Source: Synechococcus sp. CO36386bin_37 (lineage in GTDB: Bacteria > Cyanobacteriota > Cyanobacteriia > PCC-6307 > Cyanobiaceae). From it: a DNA stretch of 5,226 bases. The DNA is taken from assembly GCA_011525445.1 (NCBI GenBank), contig WTGE01000378.1, positions 1-5,226 of the forward strand, read 5' to 3'. The translations under genes and the position numbers were made by a program. Shown in pieces: positions 1 through 5,226 of this stretch. The number at the start of each line of letters is the position of its first letter. The first letter of the stretch is position 1. Below the pieces are notes generated by a model, which saw nothing but the letters and a program-made list of their open reading frames with translations, did not search any database and was not told the origin of the DNA.

Positions 1-90
1 GTTGTAGACCTATCTGACGTGCTTAGCGGATACTTCAATTGCGGCAGTAGCGGATCTGAAGTTTGTTCAGGTGGTTTCAATTTGCCGTAA
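1..90 (+). CDS. Possible RiPP precursor peptide, C-terminal end only (5' cut by window edge)
   Basis: The frame is open from the first base and ends at TAA (88-90), giving 29 visible residues. The first ten (VVDLSDVLSG) are acidic and hydrophobic and end in Gly, like the end of a RiPP leader. The rest is YFNCGSSGSEVCSGGFNLP, rich in Gly and Ser with two Cys (visible residues 14 and 22). Such a tail would offer Cys and Ser for azoline/azole or lanthionine formation. The facing neighbour is a ThcOx-like azoline dehydrogenase, which makes a precursor role attractive. This rests on composition and context only. The start and any leader are outside the window, 29 open codons can arise by chance, and a minus-strand frame is also open here. 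It could equally be the tail of an ordinary protein. Confidence 0.4.
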   Translation, partial: VVDLSDVLSGYFNCGSSGSEVCSGGFNLP

Positions 91-164
91 TACCTCTTGA
101 AGGAACATTGGTTCAAGAAGGATTCGGCAGGCACCAACAATGCTCGGCAGGAAATGCTTTGATC

Positions 165-206
165 CTCGGCTTTTCCCCAATCGCAATCAAGTCTCAAAAA
201 GCCGAG
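165..206. repeat. Perfect 10-bp inverted repeat between the dehydrogenase and the left-edge frame
   Basis: The arms CTCGGCTTTT (165-174) and AAAAGCCGAG (197-206) are exact reverse complements separated by 22 bases. The repeat begins 8 bases beyond the dehydrogenase stop codon, inside the 124-base gap (91-214) between it and the left-edge plus-strand frame. In RNA from either strand it would form a stem with the U/A pairs on the loop side. It therefore lacks the U-tract after the stem that defines an intrinsic terminator. It may still be a 3'-end or processing hairpin for one or both convergent transcripts, or the remnant of a small repeat element. CGGCAGG also occurs twice nearby (125-131 and 145-151). 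Confidence 0.55.
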
Positions 207-214
207 AGTTCATG

Positions 215-1693
215 TCATGGATTGAATGTTGAATTCGGGTTTCCGATCATGAATTCACCAACGGAGCATTCCACTGTGCCTGAGATGCCCGATGCTTGCT
301 CCAATAACTCACTACTTCCAAAACTCAACCCGCAAGGAGCGAGTTCCAGTGCCGTAGCCACCAGATAAAGTTGTTGGTAAATCGAACCTGCATCTTTCAG
401 GATCAGCGCATAAGCCAGTCCGGTGTTGAAATGAAGGCTTGCCTGCCTTTCGTAGCGCGCTGCCATCACGATTAAGACATCGGGATGCTGGCCTTGGCTT
501 GGAGACACAGAGTCGGCTTGAGGCGGCCGGCATGTTGTATTGACTGCCAGAGCAAGCATGTTTTCGCAGGCTTCATTGAAATCGCTGATCCTGCCCAGTG
601 AGTGTTCAAAAGAGTCGTAATGATAAAAACCTGGGCTGATGCCGGTGCATTGCTTAATGCACAAATAAAACTCAATGGAATGGATGGCGCCAGCACTGGC
701 GACAGGTCTCAGTAGACCTTCATAGGCGCGGGGTAAGCCAGGGTCGCAGAGAATTTCCTCTCGTGTGTGCATCGAATACCAGAGAAGATTTCCCAAGGCC
801 TCAATATTGATAGGCCTCGTTTGATATGCACGAATGGTCTGGCGTTTCTGAATGATTTGGTAGAAGTTTGCGTTGTGAAGATGGATCGATGGTTTTGGCA
901 GTGTCAATCTGCTGAGAATGATGCGTTGATGCTTGGCGGGCGGTCCTTGACGTGTGACCGGCTTTGTCCATGAGTCTTCGTTATCAAGATCAACGCTGTT
1001 GCAACGGGTGTTGTGGTGAAATGTCAGATCTTGCCTGCTCCAGCCAGCTTTGATGGGCTCCAGGTCGATTTCGATGTTTTGATTGGTGTTGCTGATCCCA
1101 GCAATGCCAGAATTTAATAAAAGGGAGATCAGGTCTTGATAGTGGATTTGTAAATCTTCTGGTAGGAATGCCCGGAATTGTTCGATCGGGCAGGGAGTTG
1201 CGAGCTTTGGGATTAATCCATAGAGCCGATCATCCTGGATTTGCAATCTTGCTGCCGAAAGGGGTGATGTAATCTCGAATCCCTTTTCGTAAATATGGAT
1301 GTTTGCGAATCTTGAGAGTTTGACCTCATGATTCAGACCTGGGAAGGGATGCAGTTTGAGTCCTGGCTTCTTAGGCAAAGTCCGAAGAGCTATGCCATTG
1401 CATCCTTCGATTGTGCATATGATTAATCCCCGTTTGTAAAGCTTCTCAAGTGTTTGTTTGCAGCAGGAGTGCTTCATCTTGGAATCTTTTTTGTTCGGTT
1501 TTTTGATAAGTGGATTGCCATTTATTCCAGTTTGTGAGAGTTTGTTTAAAAGATCTTTGACGGAGGATTCCGCGTATTTAATGCGTACTTTCTGGCGATT
1601 TGGGTTTGACCTGGTGGCGTAAGGGGTTGTGATAATGGCGTCAGAATCGCCGAGATCGAGTTGCACTCCATCTCGGAAAAGGTAATTGGTCAT
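215..1693 (-). CDS. SagB/ThcOx-family FMN-dependent peptide dehydrogenase (azoline oxidase-like)
   Basis: The 492-residue protein has the full ThcOx-type layout, and its length fits the two-part members. Residues about 1-110 and 115-215 look like the two winged-helix peptide-recognition domains: LEKLYKRGLI (82-91), then LSRF (126-129) and ITSPLSAARL (141-150). A linker with W218 and DLTFHH (222-227) matches the family's W..hDLlFH segment. The oxidase domain (about 275-492) shows the FMN-phosphate region KRQTIRAY (283-290), RPVASAGAIHSIEFYL (329-344), GFYHYD (355-360), YQQLYLVATALELAPCGLS (439-457) and VGEFMIGNP (478-486). Known relatives oxidise thiazolines/oxazolines to azoles in RiPPs, using FMN in the cytoplasm. 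Two oddities: the family's Lys-Tyr pair before AYALILKDAG is replaced by Phe-Asn (422-423), and the N-domain carries C77, C78, C93 and C98. ATG 1693 is the first start after an in-frame stop at 1742-1744; no Shine-Dalgarno is visible. The family call is firm; the substrate is unknown. Confidence 0.9.
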   Translation of the reverse strand: MTNYLFRDGVQLDLGDSDAIITTPYATRSNPNRQKVRIKYAESSVKDLLNKLSQTGINGNPLIKKPNKKDSKMKHSCCKQTLEKLYKRGLIICTIEGCNGIALRTLPKKPGLKLHPFPGLNHEVKLSRFANIHIYEKGFEITSPLSAARLQIQDDRLYGLIPKLATPCPIEQFRAFLPEDLQIHYQDLISLLLNSGIAGISNTNQNIEIDLEPIKAGWSRQDLTFHHNTRCNSVDLDNEDSWTKPVTRQGPPAKHQRIILSRLTLPKPSIHLHNANFYQIIQKRQTIRAYQTRPINIEALGNLLWYSMHTREEILCDPGLPRAYEGLLRPVASAGAIHSIEFYLCIKQCTGISPGFYHYDSFEHSLGRISDFNEACENMLALAVNTTCRPPQADSVSPSQGQHPDVLIVMAARYERQASLHFNTGLAYALILKDAGSIYQQLYLVATALELAPCGLSFGSSELLEQASGISGTVECSVGEFMIGNPNSTFNP

Positions 1694-1893
1694 TGTTAGT
1701 ATTTTGTAGTAAAGTTGAGCCCATTGATTGAATTCAGTGTCTTAATCTGAGCGTTTTAACTTGAGATTTGGCACTGTCTTCCTCAGTGATATTGATCTTT
1801 CTTGTGCCAGTATTTTTGATTTCATTTTTGCTGTAACCACATTGCGTCTGTGCAGCGTTCTGCTGAAAGAAGTCATCTGTCCCGTAACCAGAG
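1694..1893. other. 200-base spacer upstream of the dehydrogenase and downstream of ald
   Basis: This stretch separates the ald stop from the dehydrogenase start, both on the minus strand, and should hold the dehydrogenase promoter if that gene is transcribed on its own. It is AT-rich close to the start, but I cannot pick a convincing -35/-10 pair. No U-tailed terminator hairpin follows ald; only short stems are seen (CAGC/GCTG around 1853-1865; CACTG/CAGTG at 1772-1788). A small minus-strand frame (ATG 1876 to TAA 1742-1744, 44 residues, basic, no Cys) lies inside it and is in frame with the dehydrogenase. It is not annotated as a gene because nothing beyond its openness supports it. Confidence 0.6.
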
Positions 1894-3033
1894 TTAGCGC
1901 AGGCAAGCCATGGGATGTCGAGGCGGAACTTCCAATGCTTTGGCCACTCCGGGGTGGCACACGGCCCCTTGCACGGTGTTCAACCCAGACAGCAATTCAG
2001 GGCGTTCCGTCACAGCTTCCTCCAGGCCCCTCCCAGCGATGCCAAGGATGTAAGGCAGCGTCACGCTCACAAGAGCTTCGGTTGACGTGAACGGCACAGC
2101 TCCAGGCATGTTTCCAACTGCGTAGTGCTGCACCCCATGAATGGCCACGGTGGGATTGGTATGGGTAGTTTCACGGCTTGTGGCGATGCAGCCTCCCTGA
2201 TCGATGGCGACATCGACGATCGCTGACCCCTGTTTCATCCCTTTCACCATGGCTTCGTCCACCAATGTTGGTGCTCTTCCACCAGGAGTCAGAACAGCAC
2301 CAATCAGCAGGTCAGTCGTGGGGATCAGCCTTTCAAGGAGTCCACGGCTGCTGACGACGCTCATCAACCGTCCACTGCGACAGGCCTCCAGACTTCGCAA
2401 ACGTTCTGGAGACCGATCCAGCAGCATCACTTCTGCATCCATTGCTGCCGCCAGCCTTGCCGCATTCCAGCCCACGGTGCCTGCACCGAGCACCACAACG
2501 CGAGCCGGTTGAACGCCTGTGCACCCTCCAATCAGAACACCCCTGCCCCCTTGAGGGCGTTCCAGCAATCGGGCGCCAACTTGTGCAGCCAGTCGTCCCG
2601 CGATTTCGCTCATGGGTGCCAGCAGTGGAAGGGTGCCGTTCTCCAATTGCACCGTCTCGTAGGCCACACCGGTGGTGCCAGCTGCAAGCAGGGCTTCTCC
2701 CACTTCTGGATAGGCCGCTAGGTGCAGATAGGTGAACAGCACCATGTCTTCCCGTAGAAAGCGGAATTCCTCAGGCTGTGGTTCCTTCACCTTCACGACC
2801 AGGTGAGCGGCCCAGGCCTGGTCTTGGTCAACGATCTGTGCTCCTGCAGCGGCAAAGGCTTCGTCATTGATTCCGGCACCGGCGCCGGCTCCGCTTTGAA
2901 TGCGAACCTCCAGGCCGTGAGAGGCAAGCTCCTTCACGGCATCAGGTGTGAGCGCGATGCGTTGCTCATCAACCTTGAGCTCTGTGGGAACTCCGATGGT
3001 GGCCATGGGAGCCGTCAGTACGGATGGAGCCAT
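1894..3033 (-). CDS. ald: Alanine dehydrogenase (NAD-dependent)
   Basis: Catalyses reversible oxidative deamination of L-alanine to pyruvate and ammonium with NAD+; a soluble cytoplasmic oligomer. From ATG 3033 it has 379 residues, close to the family norm of about 370. Family landmarks: IGVPTELKVDEQRIALTP (13-30) with pyruvate-binding R25; KVKEP (81-85) with the substrate Lys (K83); TYLHLAA (101-107) with catalytic H104; the Rossmann loop GAGTVG (183-188) with D206 as the adenosine-ribose acidic residue; VDVAIDQGG (273-281) with catalytic D278; and HYAVGNMPGAVPFTST (303-318). The frame stays open to 3141, but that extension overlaps nadE and is unlike the family. ATG 3006 (residue 10) is an alternative start that would give the canonical N-terminus. 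No strong ribosome site precedes either. It lies 70 nt after nadE on the same strand, so co-transcription is plausible. All catalytic residues are present. Confidence 0.95.
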   Translation of the reverse strand: MAPSVLTAPMATIGVPTELKVDEQRIALTPDAVKELASHGLEVRIQSGAGAGAGINDEAFAAAGAQIVDQDQAWAAHLVVKVKEPQPEEFRFLREDMVLFTYLHLAAYPEVGEALLAAGTTGVAYETVQLENGTLPLLAPMSEIAGRLAAQVGARLLERPQGGRGVLIGGCTGVQPARVVVLGAGTVGWNAARLAAAMDAEVMLLDRSPERLRSLEACRSGRLMSVVSSRGLLERLIPTTDLLIGAVLTPGGRAPTLVDEAMVKGMKQGSAIVDVAIDQGGCIATSRETTHTNPTVAIHGVQHYAVGNMPGAVPFTSTEALVSVTLPYILGIAGRGLEEAVTERPELLSGLNTVQGAVCHPGVAKALEVPPRHPMACLR

Positions 3034-3103
3034 GACTGCCGAAGACGTTGCTTCAATCTGACCCCGTCGAGCCAGATTCGCCAGTGGTTTATGTGAGTTG
3101 AAA

Positions 3104-4861
3104 TCAGCGGGCGGCGATGGGGAGCCTCCATCCGCTCCCAAAGGCCTGGCAACTCACTTTCAGGACAGGTGGCGCCTGTCGTCGCTTGAATTCGGCACGT
3201 CGGAAGAGTTGCTCAATCCGTTTCACATCGCCAGGCTCGTGGCCGGTCGCGATCAATTGAGCACCAGAGCTGCGCTTCTCGATCAGCTCATGCAGAAGGG
3301 GGTCGAGGATTGCGTAATCGGGAAGCGAATCGGTGTCCTGCTGGTCGGGGCGCAGTTCAGCACTCGGTGGTTTGTTCAGGATCTCTGGTCCGATCAGCTT
3401 TCCTTGATCTGGCAGACCGAGTGCTTGCCGGCTGACCAAGGCGGCAGGGCTGTCCAGCCAACGGCAAAGGGAAAACACTGTGGATTTATAGAGATCACCG
3501 ATGACCGCCAGACCTCCGTTCATGTCGCCGTAAAGGGTGCAATACCCCACTGCAAGCTCGGACTTATTGCCCGTTGAAAGCAGCAGTTGACCCTGTTGAT
3601 TGGCCACAGCCATAAGCAGGGTGCCGCGGATACGGGACTGCAGGTTTTCCGCTGTTAAACCTGATGGTGCTTGATCCAGCGCCGAGGTGAGGGTGGATTC
3701 AAAGCCAGCCATCAAGGTTTGAATCGGCAGGATTGTCGTGCTCAGGCCAAGGCGCTTCGCCAGCGCCTCAGCATCGTCAACAGACCCTTTTGAGCTCCAG
3801 GGGGAAGGCATCAACAGGGCTTGGACCCGGTCGCTTCCGAGCGCTGCTGCCGCGACAACAGCCACAAGCGCTGAATCAATGCCACCACTCAGTCCCAGCA
3901 GAGCGCGATCAAAGCCGCATTTGCCGGCGTAATCACGTACCCCGAGCACGAGAGCCTGAAACAGTTGGGCGAGATCATCTCCATCGGAGTTGCCGTAAGG
4001 GTTGCCGTCAGCATTGGCTTGACAGCAGTTGGTTGGGGGTGATGGTGCTGTGGTGGTTTTGGCAGCGTGGTTCCAGATGGCAACCGCCTCTTGGCAGAAG
4101 GGGAGTTGCAGTTCCACCTCGCCAGAGGCGGCCATCACGAAACTGCCACCATCAAAGACAAGTTCGTCATTGCCTCCAACCTGGTTCACATACACAACAG
4201 GACAATTGAGCCTTGAAGCAGCTCGTTTGGCCAGCTGATGGCGGACTGAAGCTTTGGTTCGTCCGAAGGGCGAGGCAGAAAGGTTCAGCAACATATCCAC
4301 CTGTTCGGGAATGAGGTTGGCGATCGGATCCGGCCCAACCAGACGCTGCTTTTGAAGCGCATCTTCAACCCATAGGTCTTCGCAGATGGTCAGGCCCAGC
4401 CGCCAATGCCGCCCTTCAGCTTCAAAGTTCAGAACCCAGGGATGGGTCGACGGTCTGAAGTAACGCGATTCATCAAAGACGTCATAGGTGGGAAGGAGTT
4501 GTTTGCGGGCGACGATTCGCCATCCGTTTGCTTCAACGTGTGCAGCCGCATTGAAAAGCCGCGGGTGTTGCTGATCTGGTGCAGGCTCCACCACGCCCAC
4601 CAGCAGCGAAGTATTCGGCCGAGTCTGGCTGAGGCCCTTTTGGATCTGGGTCAGGGCCTGGTGTTGTTGCTGAAGGTGCTCGGAGCTGAACAGCAGGTCT
4701 CGAGGTGGGTAGCCCCAGATGGATAGTTCTGGGCTCACGACCAAAATCGGAGAGTTTTGGTCATCCTGTTCGGTGATCGCGAAGCAGGCGTCCAGTAAGC
4801 CTGCGGCGTTTCCGGAGAGATCGCCTACCAGAGGATTGGTCTGGGCCAGGGCGATGCGCAT
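3104..4861 (-). CDS. nadE: Glutamine-dependent NAD+ synthetase
   Basis: Last step of NAD+ biosynthesis: ATP-dependent amidation of nicotinate adenine dinucleotide, with ammonia taken from glutamine. The 585-residue protein is the two-domain form. The N-terminal nitrilase-fold glutaminase (about 1-265) has the triad E45 (in SPELSIWGYPPRDLL), K120 (in ARKQLLPTYD) and C160 (in LTICEDLW). A less conserved linker (about 265-295, Thr/Pro/Asn-rich) leads to the synthetase domain, with the PP-loop LSGGIDS (324-330), STGNKSELAVGYCTLYGD (429-446), GDLYKS (455-460) and the C-terminal KRRQAPPVLKVS (559-570). ATG 4861 gives the expected start (MRIALAQTNPLVGDL) and lies 6 nt beyond the nadD stop, with no clear Shine-Dalgarno, so translation may be coupled to nadD. 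Every catalytic element is intact. Being next to nadD, the enzyme one step earlier, supports the assignment. Confidence 0.97.
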   Translation of the reverse strand: MRIALAQTNPLVGDLSGNAAGLLDACFAITEQDDQNSPILVVSPELSIWGYPPRDLLFSSEHLQQQHQALTQIQKGLSQTRPNTSLLVGVVEPAPDQQHPRLFNAAAHVEANGWRIVARKQLLPTYDVFDESRYFRPSTHPWVLNFEAEGRHWRLGLTICEDLWVEDALQKQRLVGPDPIANLIPEQVDMLLNLSASPFGRTKASVRHQLAKRAASRLNCPVVYVNQVGGNDELVFDGGSFVMAASGEVELQLPFCQEAVAIWNHAAKTTTAPSPPTNCCQANADGNPYGNSDGDDLAQLFQALVLGVRDYAGKCGFDRALLGLSGGIDSALVAVVAAAALGSDRVQALLMPSPWSSKGSVDDAEALAKRLGLSTTILPIQTLMAGFESTLTSALDQAPSGLTAENLQSRIRGTLLMAVANQQGQLLLSTGNKSELAVGYCTLYGDMNGGLAVIGDLYKSTVFSLCRWLDSPAALVSRQALGLPDQGKLIGPEILNKPPSAELRPDQQDTDSLPDYAILDPLLHELIEKRSSGAQLIATGHEPGDVKRIEQLFRRAEFKRRQAPPVLKVSCQAFGSGWRLPIAAR

Positions 4862-4867
4862 GGCGAT

Positions 4868-5226
4868 TCAGGAACGAACGTGTTGGAGTCCATAGAGATT
4901 GTGCTGCAACAAGAGTGGCAAGAGCGATTGGGGAATCTGATCGGCAGCGTGGGTTGTGCGGATGCTGGAGCTTGCTGTTTCAGGAATCTGCAGAGGGAGT
5001 TCCCTGATCTCTGCACCGATCTGCCTCAGGTGCTCGAGGTGTTTGCGCTCTAATGGCCATCCTTCTCGAGGCACGATTCCAAGCTTGCAGCGCTTTAGCC
5101 AGAGCTCACTTTGCTTCCAATGAGGGATCTGAGCTGCAAGATCGCTTCCGACTACAAAACAGAGCTCGTGATCGGGCCACCGTTGAGCTGCCCGCTCAAC
5201 GGTGATCATGGTGTAAGGGCTGCTGA
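4868..5226 (-). CDS. nadD: Nicotinate-nucleotide adenylyltransferase, C-terminal part (5' end outside window)
   Basis: Adenylates nicotinate mononucleotide with ATP to give nicotinate adenine dinucleotide, the substrate of NadE. The frame runs off the right edge, leaving 118 codons. The N-terminal nucleotidyltransferase motif (GxFDPxHxGH type) is not visible. What remains fits the family: SSPYTMITVERAAQ at the edge (the conserved SYT..T segment), CFVVGSDLAAQIPHWKQSELW (the GsD...l..W motif), CKLGIVPREGW, then TASSSIR (the ISSxxIR nucleotide-binding motif) and a C-terminal LLPLLLQHNLYGL helix and tail. The internal ATG at 5209 is not the start, since conserved residues precede it. The TGA (4868-4870) is 6 nt before nadE, consistent with an NAD-biosynthesis operon. 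Cyanobacterial NadD is divergent, so the call leans on both motifs and position. Confidence 0.9.
   Translation of the reverse strand, partial: SSPYTMITVERAAQRWPDHELCFVVGSDLAAQIPHWKQSELWLKRCKLGIVPREGWPLERKHLEHLRQIGAEIRELPLQIPETASSSIRTTHAADQIPQSLLPLLLQHNLYGLQHVRS

Follow-up and report, generated by a model that had tools for sequence, protein, structure and literature searches.

An orphan SagB/ThcOx-type gene downstream of ald in Synechococcus belongs to a clade that probably performs an oxidation other than azole formation

The window analysed here is a stretch of 5,226 nucleotides of Synechococcus sp. CO36386bin_37 (assembly GCA_011525445.1, contig WTGE01000378.1, positions 1 to 5,226). It carries the gene of an orphan SagB/ThcOx-type enzyme (sagB), which lies downstream of ald, nadE and a partial nadD, all on the minus strand (Table 1). 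In the original prediction the gene was taken for a complete two-part azoline dehydrogenase, AT-richer than its ordinary metabolic neighbours, and for an acquired module at the edge of a locus for a ribosomally synthesised and post-translationally modified peptide (RiPP). The description of the gene itself was borne out. The open reading frame (ORF) starts with ATG and is free of internal stops. Pfam scans of the protein assigned PF22767 (ThcOx, residues 124-231, 38.5 bits, cut-off 27.7) and PF00881 (Nitroreductase, residues 281-475, 33.7 bits, cut-off 23.5). Comparison with the SagB/ThcOx family models, as had been proposed, gave TIGR03605 (SagB) for residues 297-484 at 115.5 bits (cut-off 78.4), and 119.9 and 120.9 bits for two relatives. 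TIGR04511 (SagB_rel_DH_2, putative peptide maturation dehydrogenase) showed partial likeness far under its cut-off (81.8 versus 240 bits). The G+C content of sagB (0.474) is lower than that of ald (0.598), nadE (0.579) and the nadD part (0.549), and was below that of every measured neighbour in 18 of 18 loci compared.

Table 1. Features of the window, with domain limits given as residues of the SagB protein.
Feature	Positions	Strand	Evidence and remarks
sagB, orphan SagB/ThcOx-type enzyme gene	215..1693	-	complete, 492 aa; ORF, family-profile and fold evidence
predicted first peptide-clamp domain (winged helix-turn-helix like a RiPP recognition element, RRE), residues 1-110	1364..1693	-	structure match to ThcOx; median dN/dS among relatives 0.292
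predicted second peptide-clamp domain, residues 111-232 (PF22767 124-231)	998..1363	-	Pfam and ThcOx structure match; median dN/dS among relatives 0.241
flavin mononucleotide (FMN) nitroreductase-like catalytic domain, residues 276-486 (PF00881 281-475)	236..868	-	R284 and R288 kept; median dN/dS among relatives 0.083
L420-H421 codons, in place of the Lys-Tyr motif	431..436	-	alignments; phmmer pairing with ThcOx
clade-specific 11-residue insert, residues 388-398, starting with invariant C388	500..532	-	alignment of the clade with other SagBs
ald, alanine dehydrogenase	1894..3033	-	TIGR00518, 454.4 bits; host gene, outside the module
nadE, NAD+ synthase	3104..4861	-	NF010588, 618.3 bits; host gene
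nadD, nicotinate-nucleotide adenylyltransferase, partial	4868..5224	-	NF000842, 134.2 bits, below cut-off 167, frame cut at window end; host gene
ald-sagB spacer	1694..1893	.	near side of the presumed ald/ychJ insertion; far side beyond the window

The structure of the window protein was predicted from a 100-row alignment (mean predicted local distance difference test score, pLDDT, 88.8; predicted template modelling score 0.83), which superseded an earlier model from a shallow alignment (pLDDT 69.8). In Foldseek and VIA-align comparisons ThcOx ranked first by far and was matched over residues 1-488 of the model; the closest solved structures were ThcOx 8pz5 and 5lq4 (E 1.4e-34). Besides ThcOx the VIA lists held no full-length match, and this was not taken as evidence. 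The peptide-clamp domains of ThcOx are described in PMC5108345, and both are present in the predicted structure of the window protein. The model thus has the arrangement of SagB/ThcOx-type enzymes, clamp domains followed by an FMN nitroreductase fold. The protein is not a plain nitroreductase, having N-terminal clamps in the model and ThcOx as best match, and neither the structure matches nor the tree described below placed it with non-RiPP nitroreductases, an outcome that had been named as counting against the original prediction.

Relatives were collected by a protein search with 819 matches. Among the best 120, which were listed, 42 formed a close set (43-98% identity), named, where names were given, as Synechococcus MIT S9504, MIT S9508 and UW179A. 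For motif analysis the best 120 of the 819 matches were aligned with the proteins of 18 loci including the window and with nine YcaO-linked Synechococcus proteins (n = 147). Sixty rows, among them near-duplicates from one and the same locus, belong to the clade of the window protein. R284 and R288 do not vary in these 60, which suggests that the window SagB may bind FMN. In dehydrogenases of thiazole/oxazole-modified microcins (TOMMs) a Lys-Tyr motif is reported to be important for catalysis (PMC11055893). The corresponding columns of the clade read Leu-His in 57 and Ile-His in 2 of 59 readable rows, the region being missing from one row; with one row per locus, Leu-His was found in 17 and Ile-His in one of 18. 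Tyr is present in every one of the other SagBs (n = 87, of which 78 among the matches listed and the nine YcaO-linked proteins), Lys in 81 of them. A phmmer alignment of the window protein to ThcOx paired the same motif residues. With Leu/Ile-His throughout the readable rows, the azoline (TOMM) dehydrogenase motif is absent from the clade, and the window protein is classed by sequence with the SagB/ThcOx family rather than with the TOMM azoline dehydrogenases. The azole-peptide role originally assigned to this copy thus found no support.

The motif exchange is accompanied by further changes. C388 (59/59 clade rows) opens an 11-residue insert found in none of the 87 other SagBs. C345 (60/60) and C316 (57/60) are clade-specific or nearly so, C476 (57/57) occurs in one other SagB, and C376 (59/59) is also found in 8 of the 87 others; C349 and C454 are family-wide cysteines. 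ThcOx, which belongs to a cyanobactin pathway (5lq4, 8pz5; PMC5108345), keeps Lys-Tyr, whereas the clade has Leu/Ile-His, a 2-residue and the 11-residue insert, and its own cysteines. In a 58-protein tree (quick method, Shimodaira-Hasegawa-like approximate likelihood ratio supports alone, midpoint root, several rows of odd composition) the 19 clade rows grouped together (support 100), and seven of the nine YcaO-linked Synechococcus proteins read were placed next to them (97). SagB-like enzymes of such YcaO clusters are reported from KORDI-100, UW179A, BIOS-E4-1 and others (PMC10783134), hosts related to those of the clade. They adjoin YcaO and have Lys-Tyr in 9 of 9, whereas the clade is located elsewhere, mostly in genomes in which no YcaO was found. 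The clade either arose from azoline dehydrogenases or has a near common ancestor with them, and now falls outside their definition.

Distribution was determined in an even sample of 400 whole genomes from the larger taxonomic family to which one carrier belongs. A scan with a single sequence gave no match, and the carrier counts rest on an alignment-based scan. Some match to the sagB alignment was obtained in 24 genomes. Seventeen of these, with E < 1e-230, were counted as carriers of the clade, and all 17 fall in one genus of 31 genomes; the seven weaker genomes include fragments in G343 and G348 that read Lys-Tyr (G and L numbers are our labels for genomes and loci). So far the clade has been seen only in Synechococcus. 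YcaO is always present in TOMM production (PMC4603692). Its family PF02624 matched 17 of the 400 genomes. There was no match in 14 of the 17 carrier assemblies, nor in seven of the eight carriers with a chromosome-size single contig; neither YcaO nor LanM was over the cut-off in six of these eight. The relatives' loci therefore do not qualify as clusters for TOMMs or linear azole-containing peptides (LAPs), there being no match in those 14. Within the genus YcaO was no commoner in carriers (3/17 with the gene versus 2/14 without, p = 1). As a candidate partner LanM was likewise rejected (6/17 versus 6/14). Separately, weaker YcaO matches (E 1e-30 to 1e-65, e.g. G355:C58:10969-11922) were obtained in 8 of the 17 genomes matched by PF02624, one of these matches having an internal stop.

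Because Leu/Ile-His replaces Lys-Tyr and YcaO was not found in 14 of 17 assemblies, a different oxidation is likely. We put at roughly 60% the probability that the clade has ceased to form azoles and would oxidise another peptide or protein by means of FMN. The enzyme is probably a neofunctionalised FMN enzyme acting in peptide or protein oxidation, not a YcaO-dependent azoline dehydrogenase. We infer a His-based reaction: the two N-terminal clamp domains would hold a leader or tail of the substrate, and the FMN domain would carry out a two-electron oxidation of the residue held there. His421, which is invariant and stands where Tyr is usual, would serve as base, the Cys388 insert and the other clade-specific cysteines may shape a new active site, and oxygen or a carrier would re-oxidise FMN. 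Of the two options left by the original prediction, the rest of a cluster to the left or an orphan oxidase acting on an unknown peptide, the latter fits best.

Several points weigh against this interpretation. The source for the role of Lys-Tyr deals with another enzyme (PMC11055893), Lys is also missing from 6 of the 87 other SagBs, and His could in principle still serve azoline oxidation. PF22767 was under its cut-off in three of three relatives scanned and above it for the window protein. The YcaO counts cover the relatives' genomes, among which that of the window is not included. Nine of the 17 carrier assemblies are multi-contig, and genes may be missed in them. A YcaO miss in a fragmentary assembly is weak evidence, because in G343 (1.6 Mb) a fragment of a Lys-Tyr SagB stands at the end of a contig (L031, G343:C16:2-601) and YcaO gave no match. 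Three of the 17 carriers (G284, G301 and G006) do have YcaO, and action in trans is possible there. Thiazoles may also form on a nonribosomal peptide synthetase (NRPS) as with BmdC, and NRPS genes lay outside the scope of the searches. Finally, the 47 pairs used below for dN/dS (the ratio of nonsynonymous to synonymous substitution rates) exclude the window, whose pairs exceed dS 1.2, as well as L001 and L005.

An ordinary azoline dehydrogenase acting in trans, with its peptides cyclised by a YcaO encoded elsewhere or by an NRPS, is an unlikely alternative. It would agree with the SagB family assignment, the predicted fold and the three carriers with YcaO elsewhere, and has a precedent in BmdC (7ly4), an NRPS-associated FMN oxidase without YcaO that makes thiazole on the NRPS. 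BmdC resembles the clade in its FMN fold, in an RRE-like domain (one in BmdC) and in its work without YcaO, on an NRPS. It differs in having a conserved active-site Tyr260, and its alignment to the window model is poor beyond the FMN domain (rmsd 11.8). In the three carriers, YcaO is on another contig or far along the chromosome, with a different sagB that has its own Lys-Tyr no more than about 1 kb away; the YcaO-side SagB of G284 is a distant protein on the tree. This arrangement, the YcaO misses (7/8 in single-contig carriers), the even occurrence of YcaO with and without the gene, and the lack of Lys-Tyr in all 59 readable rows argue against action in trans. AlbA cyclodipeptide oxidase (8uc3) is likewise a nitroreductase-like dehydrogenase, and acts on cyclic dipeptides.

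Among relatives sagB is under purifying selection, with dN/dS of 0.135-0.26 in 47 of 73 within-group pairs (dS < 1.2). For ald, dN/dS was far lower in 26 of the 47 pairs (0.008-0.049). The domain medians in Table 1 were obtained from pairs with dS < 1.2, with codons placed on the large alignment. A pseudo-enzyme, in which clamps and FMN fold are kept as a peptide- or flavin-binding sensor devoid of redox catalysis, might account for the lost Lys-Tyr pair and the clamps retained in the model. It is rather improbable, since the FMN domain is the most constrained part (0.083 versus 0.24-0.29 for the clamps), Tyr has given way to a single invariant His instead of a variety of residues, and neither R284 nor R288 varies in the clade.

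The 17 carriers have sagB at two chromosomal sites, both mostly empty in other genomes of the genus. At site A (ald/ychJ, nine genomes), as in the window, sagB is downstream of ald; a convergent ychJ-like gene lies on the far side in six of nine loci, the other three ending too soon or having a longer insert. At site B (yedK/small gene, eight genomes) sagB is preceded by yedK and two genes for small membrane proteins (SMP), in the order yedK-SMP1-SMP2-sagB in 8 of 8. Gene calls in the loci were naive longest ORFs. Thirty ald loci were read in the 31 genomes. Of the 21 without sagB, 17 had ychJ nearby and 14 had it no more than about 14 bases from the ald end, which supports the claim of an acquired module. 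None of 22 other yedK loci (one genome gave none) had SMP1, SMP2 or sagB within 1.5 kb, and in 17 yedK was followed by the next site-B neighbours. In a tree of ald, the site-A hosts with the window and the site-B hosts each formed one clade (100/100). The branching of sagB agrees with that of ald at site B. At site A they disagree partly: the sagB tree places G003 with G082 and G246, the ald tree with G130. Within each site group sagB looks mainly vertically inherited. It is a real, conserved, acquired gene that stands alone or with two small genes. Universal conservation beside ald can be dismissed, the gene being there in 9 of 31 genomes only.

On the far side of the relatives' ald-sagB lie genes for a high-light-inducible-like protein (PF00504 just under the cut-off), a YchJ-like protein, DUF3326, ferredoxin, a 2-oxoglutarate oxygenase and ATP-synthase subunits. 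With such housekeeping-like flanks and YcaO not found in 14 of 17 carriers, a RiPP cluster to the left of sagB was rejected, and the supposed edge of such a locus does not hold for the relatives. The counter-expectation that the left flank holds only housekeeping genes agrees with the look of the relatives' flanks; the window's own left flank lies beyond the sequence. In keeping with what had been noted before, the five window ORFs scanned with Pfam and NCBIfam gave no match to YcaO, ThiF-like, ABC-transporter or protease families. No match was obtained for a 65-aa ORF (3-197, minus strand) in these scans, and no gene was recognised in the 214 bases downstream of sagB.

In 11 of 17 carriers the SMP pair adjoins sagB or lies no more than 8 kb from it. 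SMP1 was read in loci only. SMP2 (74 aa, no Pfam match) was searched across the 400 genomes and found in 24, within the genus in 14 of 17 carriers versus 2 of 14 others (p = 2.4e-4, uncorrected for kinship). It is directly upstream of sagB in all eight site-B genomes. At site A its distance downstream of sagB is 0.8 kb in G108 and 7-8 kb in G229 and G002; in G130 the two genes are about 1 Mb apart, in G001 and G003 they are on separate contigs, and in G041, G082 and G246 SMP2 was not found. An antenna-like gene follows SMP2 in 6 of 6 site-A SMP2 loci (TIGR03041 in L060). In ten non-carrier loci SMP2 adjoins ferredoxin and flavodoxin in three, flavodoxin alone in one and neither in six, the redox and antenna families having been checked for some members only. 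This neighbourhood gives a lead to iron or light stress. SMP1 is about 79 aa and SMP2 73-74 aa long at L004:9284-9744 and its equivalents L005, L006, L007 and L060; the genes overlap at site B and belong to no Pfam family.

A more specific form of the proposal is conceivable but doubtful. The clade might form a novel class of FMN oxidases for peptides or proteins that need no YcaO and rely on His. Marine Synechococcus would have drawn it from a RiPP azoline dehydrogenase into its core physiology, where it would work together with a two-gene membrane-protein module connected with iron or light stress; a peptide of the cell or a small membrane protein, rather than an antibiotic-like RiPP, would be the substrate. 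It is quite improbable that the enzyme is a flavin oxidoreductase of the stress response to iron or light which has no peptide substrate any more and is partnered with the two small membrane proteins. The place of SMP1-SMP2 at site B, SMP2 0.8-8 kb downstream of sagB in three site-A genomes, the flavodoxin in four of ten non-carrier loci and the antenna-like genes are in favour of that reading. Both clamp domains are kept in the prediction, however, neither redox gene is present in six of the ten loci, and SMP2 was not found in 3 of 17 carriers, is about 1 Mb off in a fourth and is on a separate contig in two more.

A decaying relic of a lost RiPP cluster, to which the lack of recognised cluster partners around sagB might point, is very improbable given 17 copies without internal stops (two run off contig ends), the dN/dS of the 47 pairs and the long co-inheritance with the host. 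In this clade a SagB-type enzyme is conserved in marine Synechococcus mostly without partner, its catalytic pair exchanged for another fixed pair, and would offer a defined example of a RiPP enzyme that has taken on a different function. SagB-type genes serve as markers of RiPP clusters (e.g. PMC12710340). The clade is a warning for genome mining, as such loci should not count as LAP clusters. Two sites, eight single-contig genomes and Lys-Tyr sister enzymes make the question directly testable.

No description of the clade was found in the literature (open-licence PMC papers). PMC10783134 discusses the UW179A YcaO cluster with its SagB-like gene, and the SagB-type dehydrogenases near prochlorosins in its Fig. 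S7B might include this clade. No relative was obtained from IMG/VR (one scan with two short patterns) and no PADLOC model matched, so phage carriage and anti-phage defence were set aside. The high-light-inducible-like protein was rejected as substrate, its 45-aa form following sagB in five site-A loci only; longer relatives lie a few kb from sagB in six site-B loci. Near site A no precursor-like ORF was recognised. Nif11-like matches occurred only at site-B loci, two strong ones in one genome 4-5 kb off, and Nif11 is uninformative as a marker (388/400 genomes). A Nif11-like short protein without a clear core, detected by a home-made hidden Markov model only, lies about 1.6-2.1 kb from site-B sagB (L006:9482-10006, equivalents L061-L064). 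In two site-A genomes 7-8 kb of mostly small ORFs without assignment are found downstream of sagB (L002:11467-19255, L055:11244-18049). The public UW179A protein (P0041) has 312 aa, and the genome reading frame (L062, G284) is open for 511 aa; the annotated start of P0041 is probably too far in.
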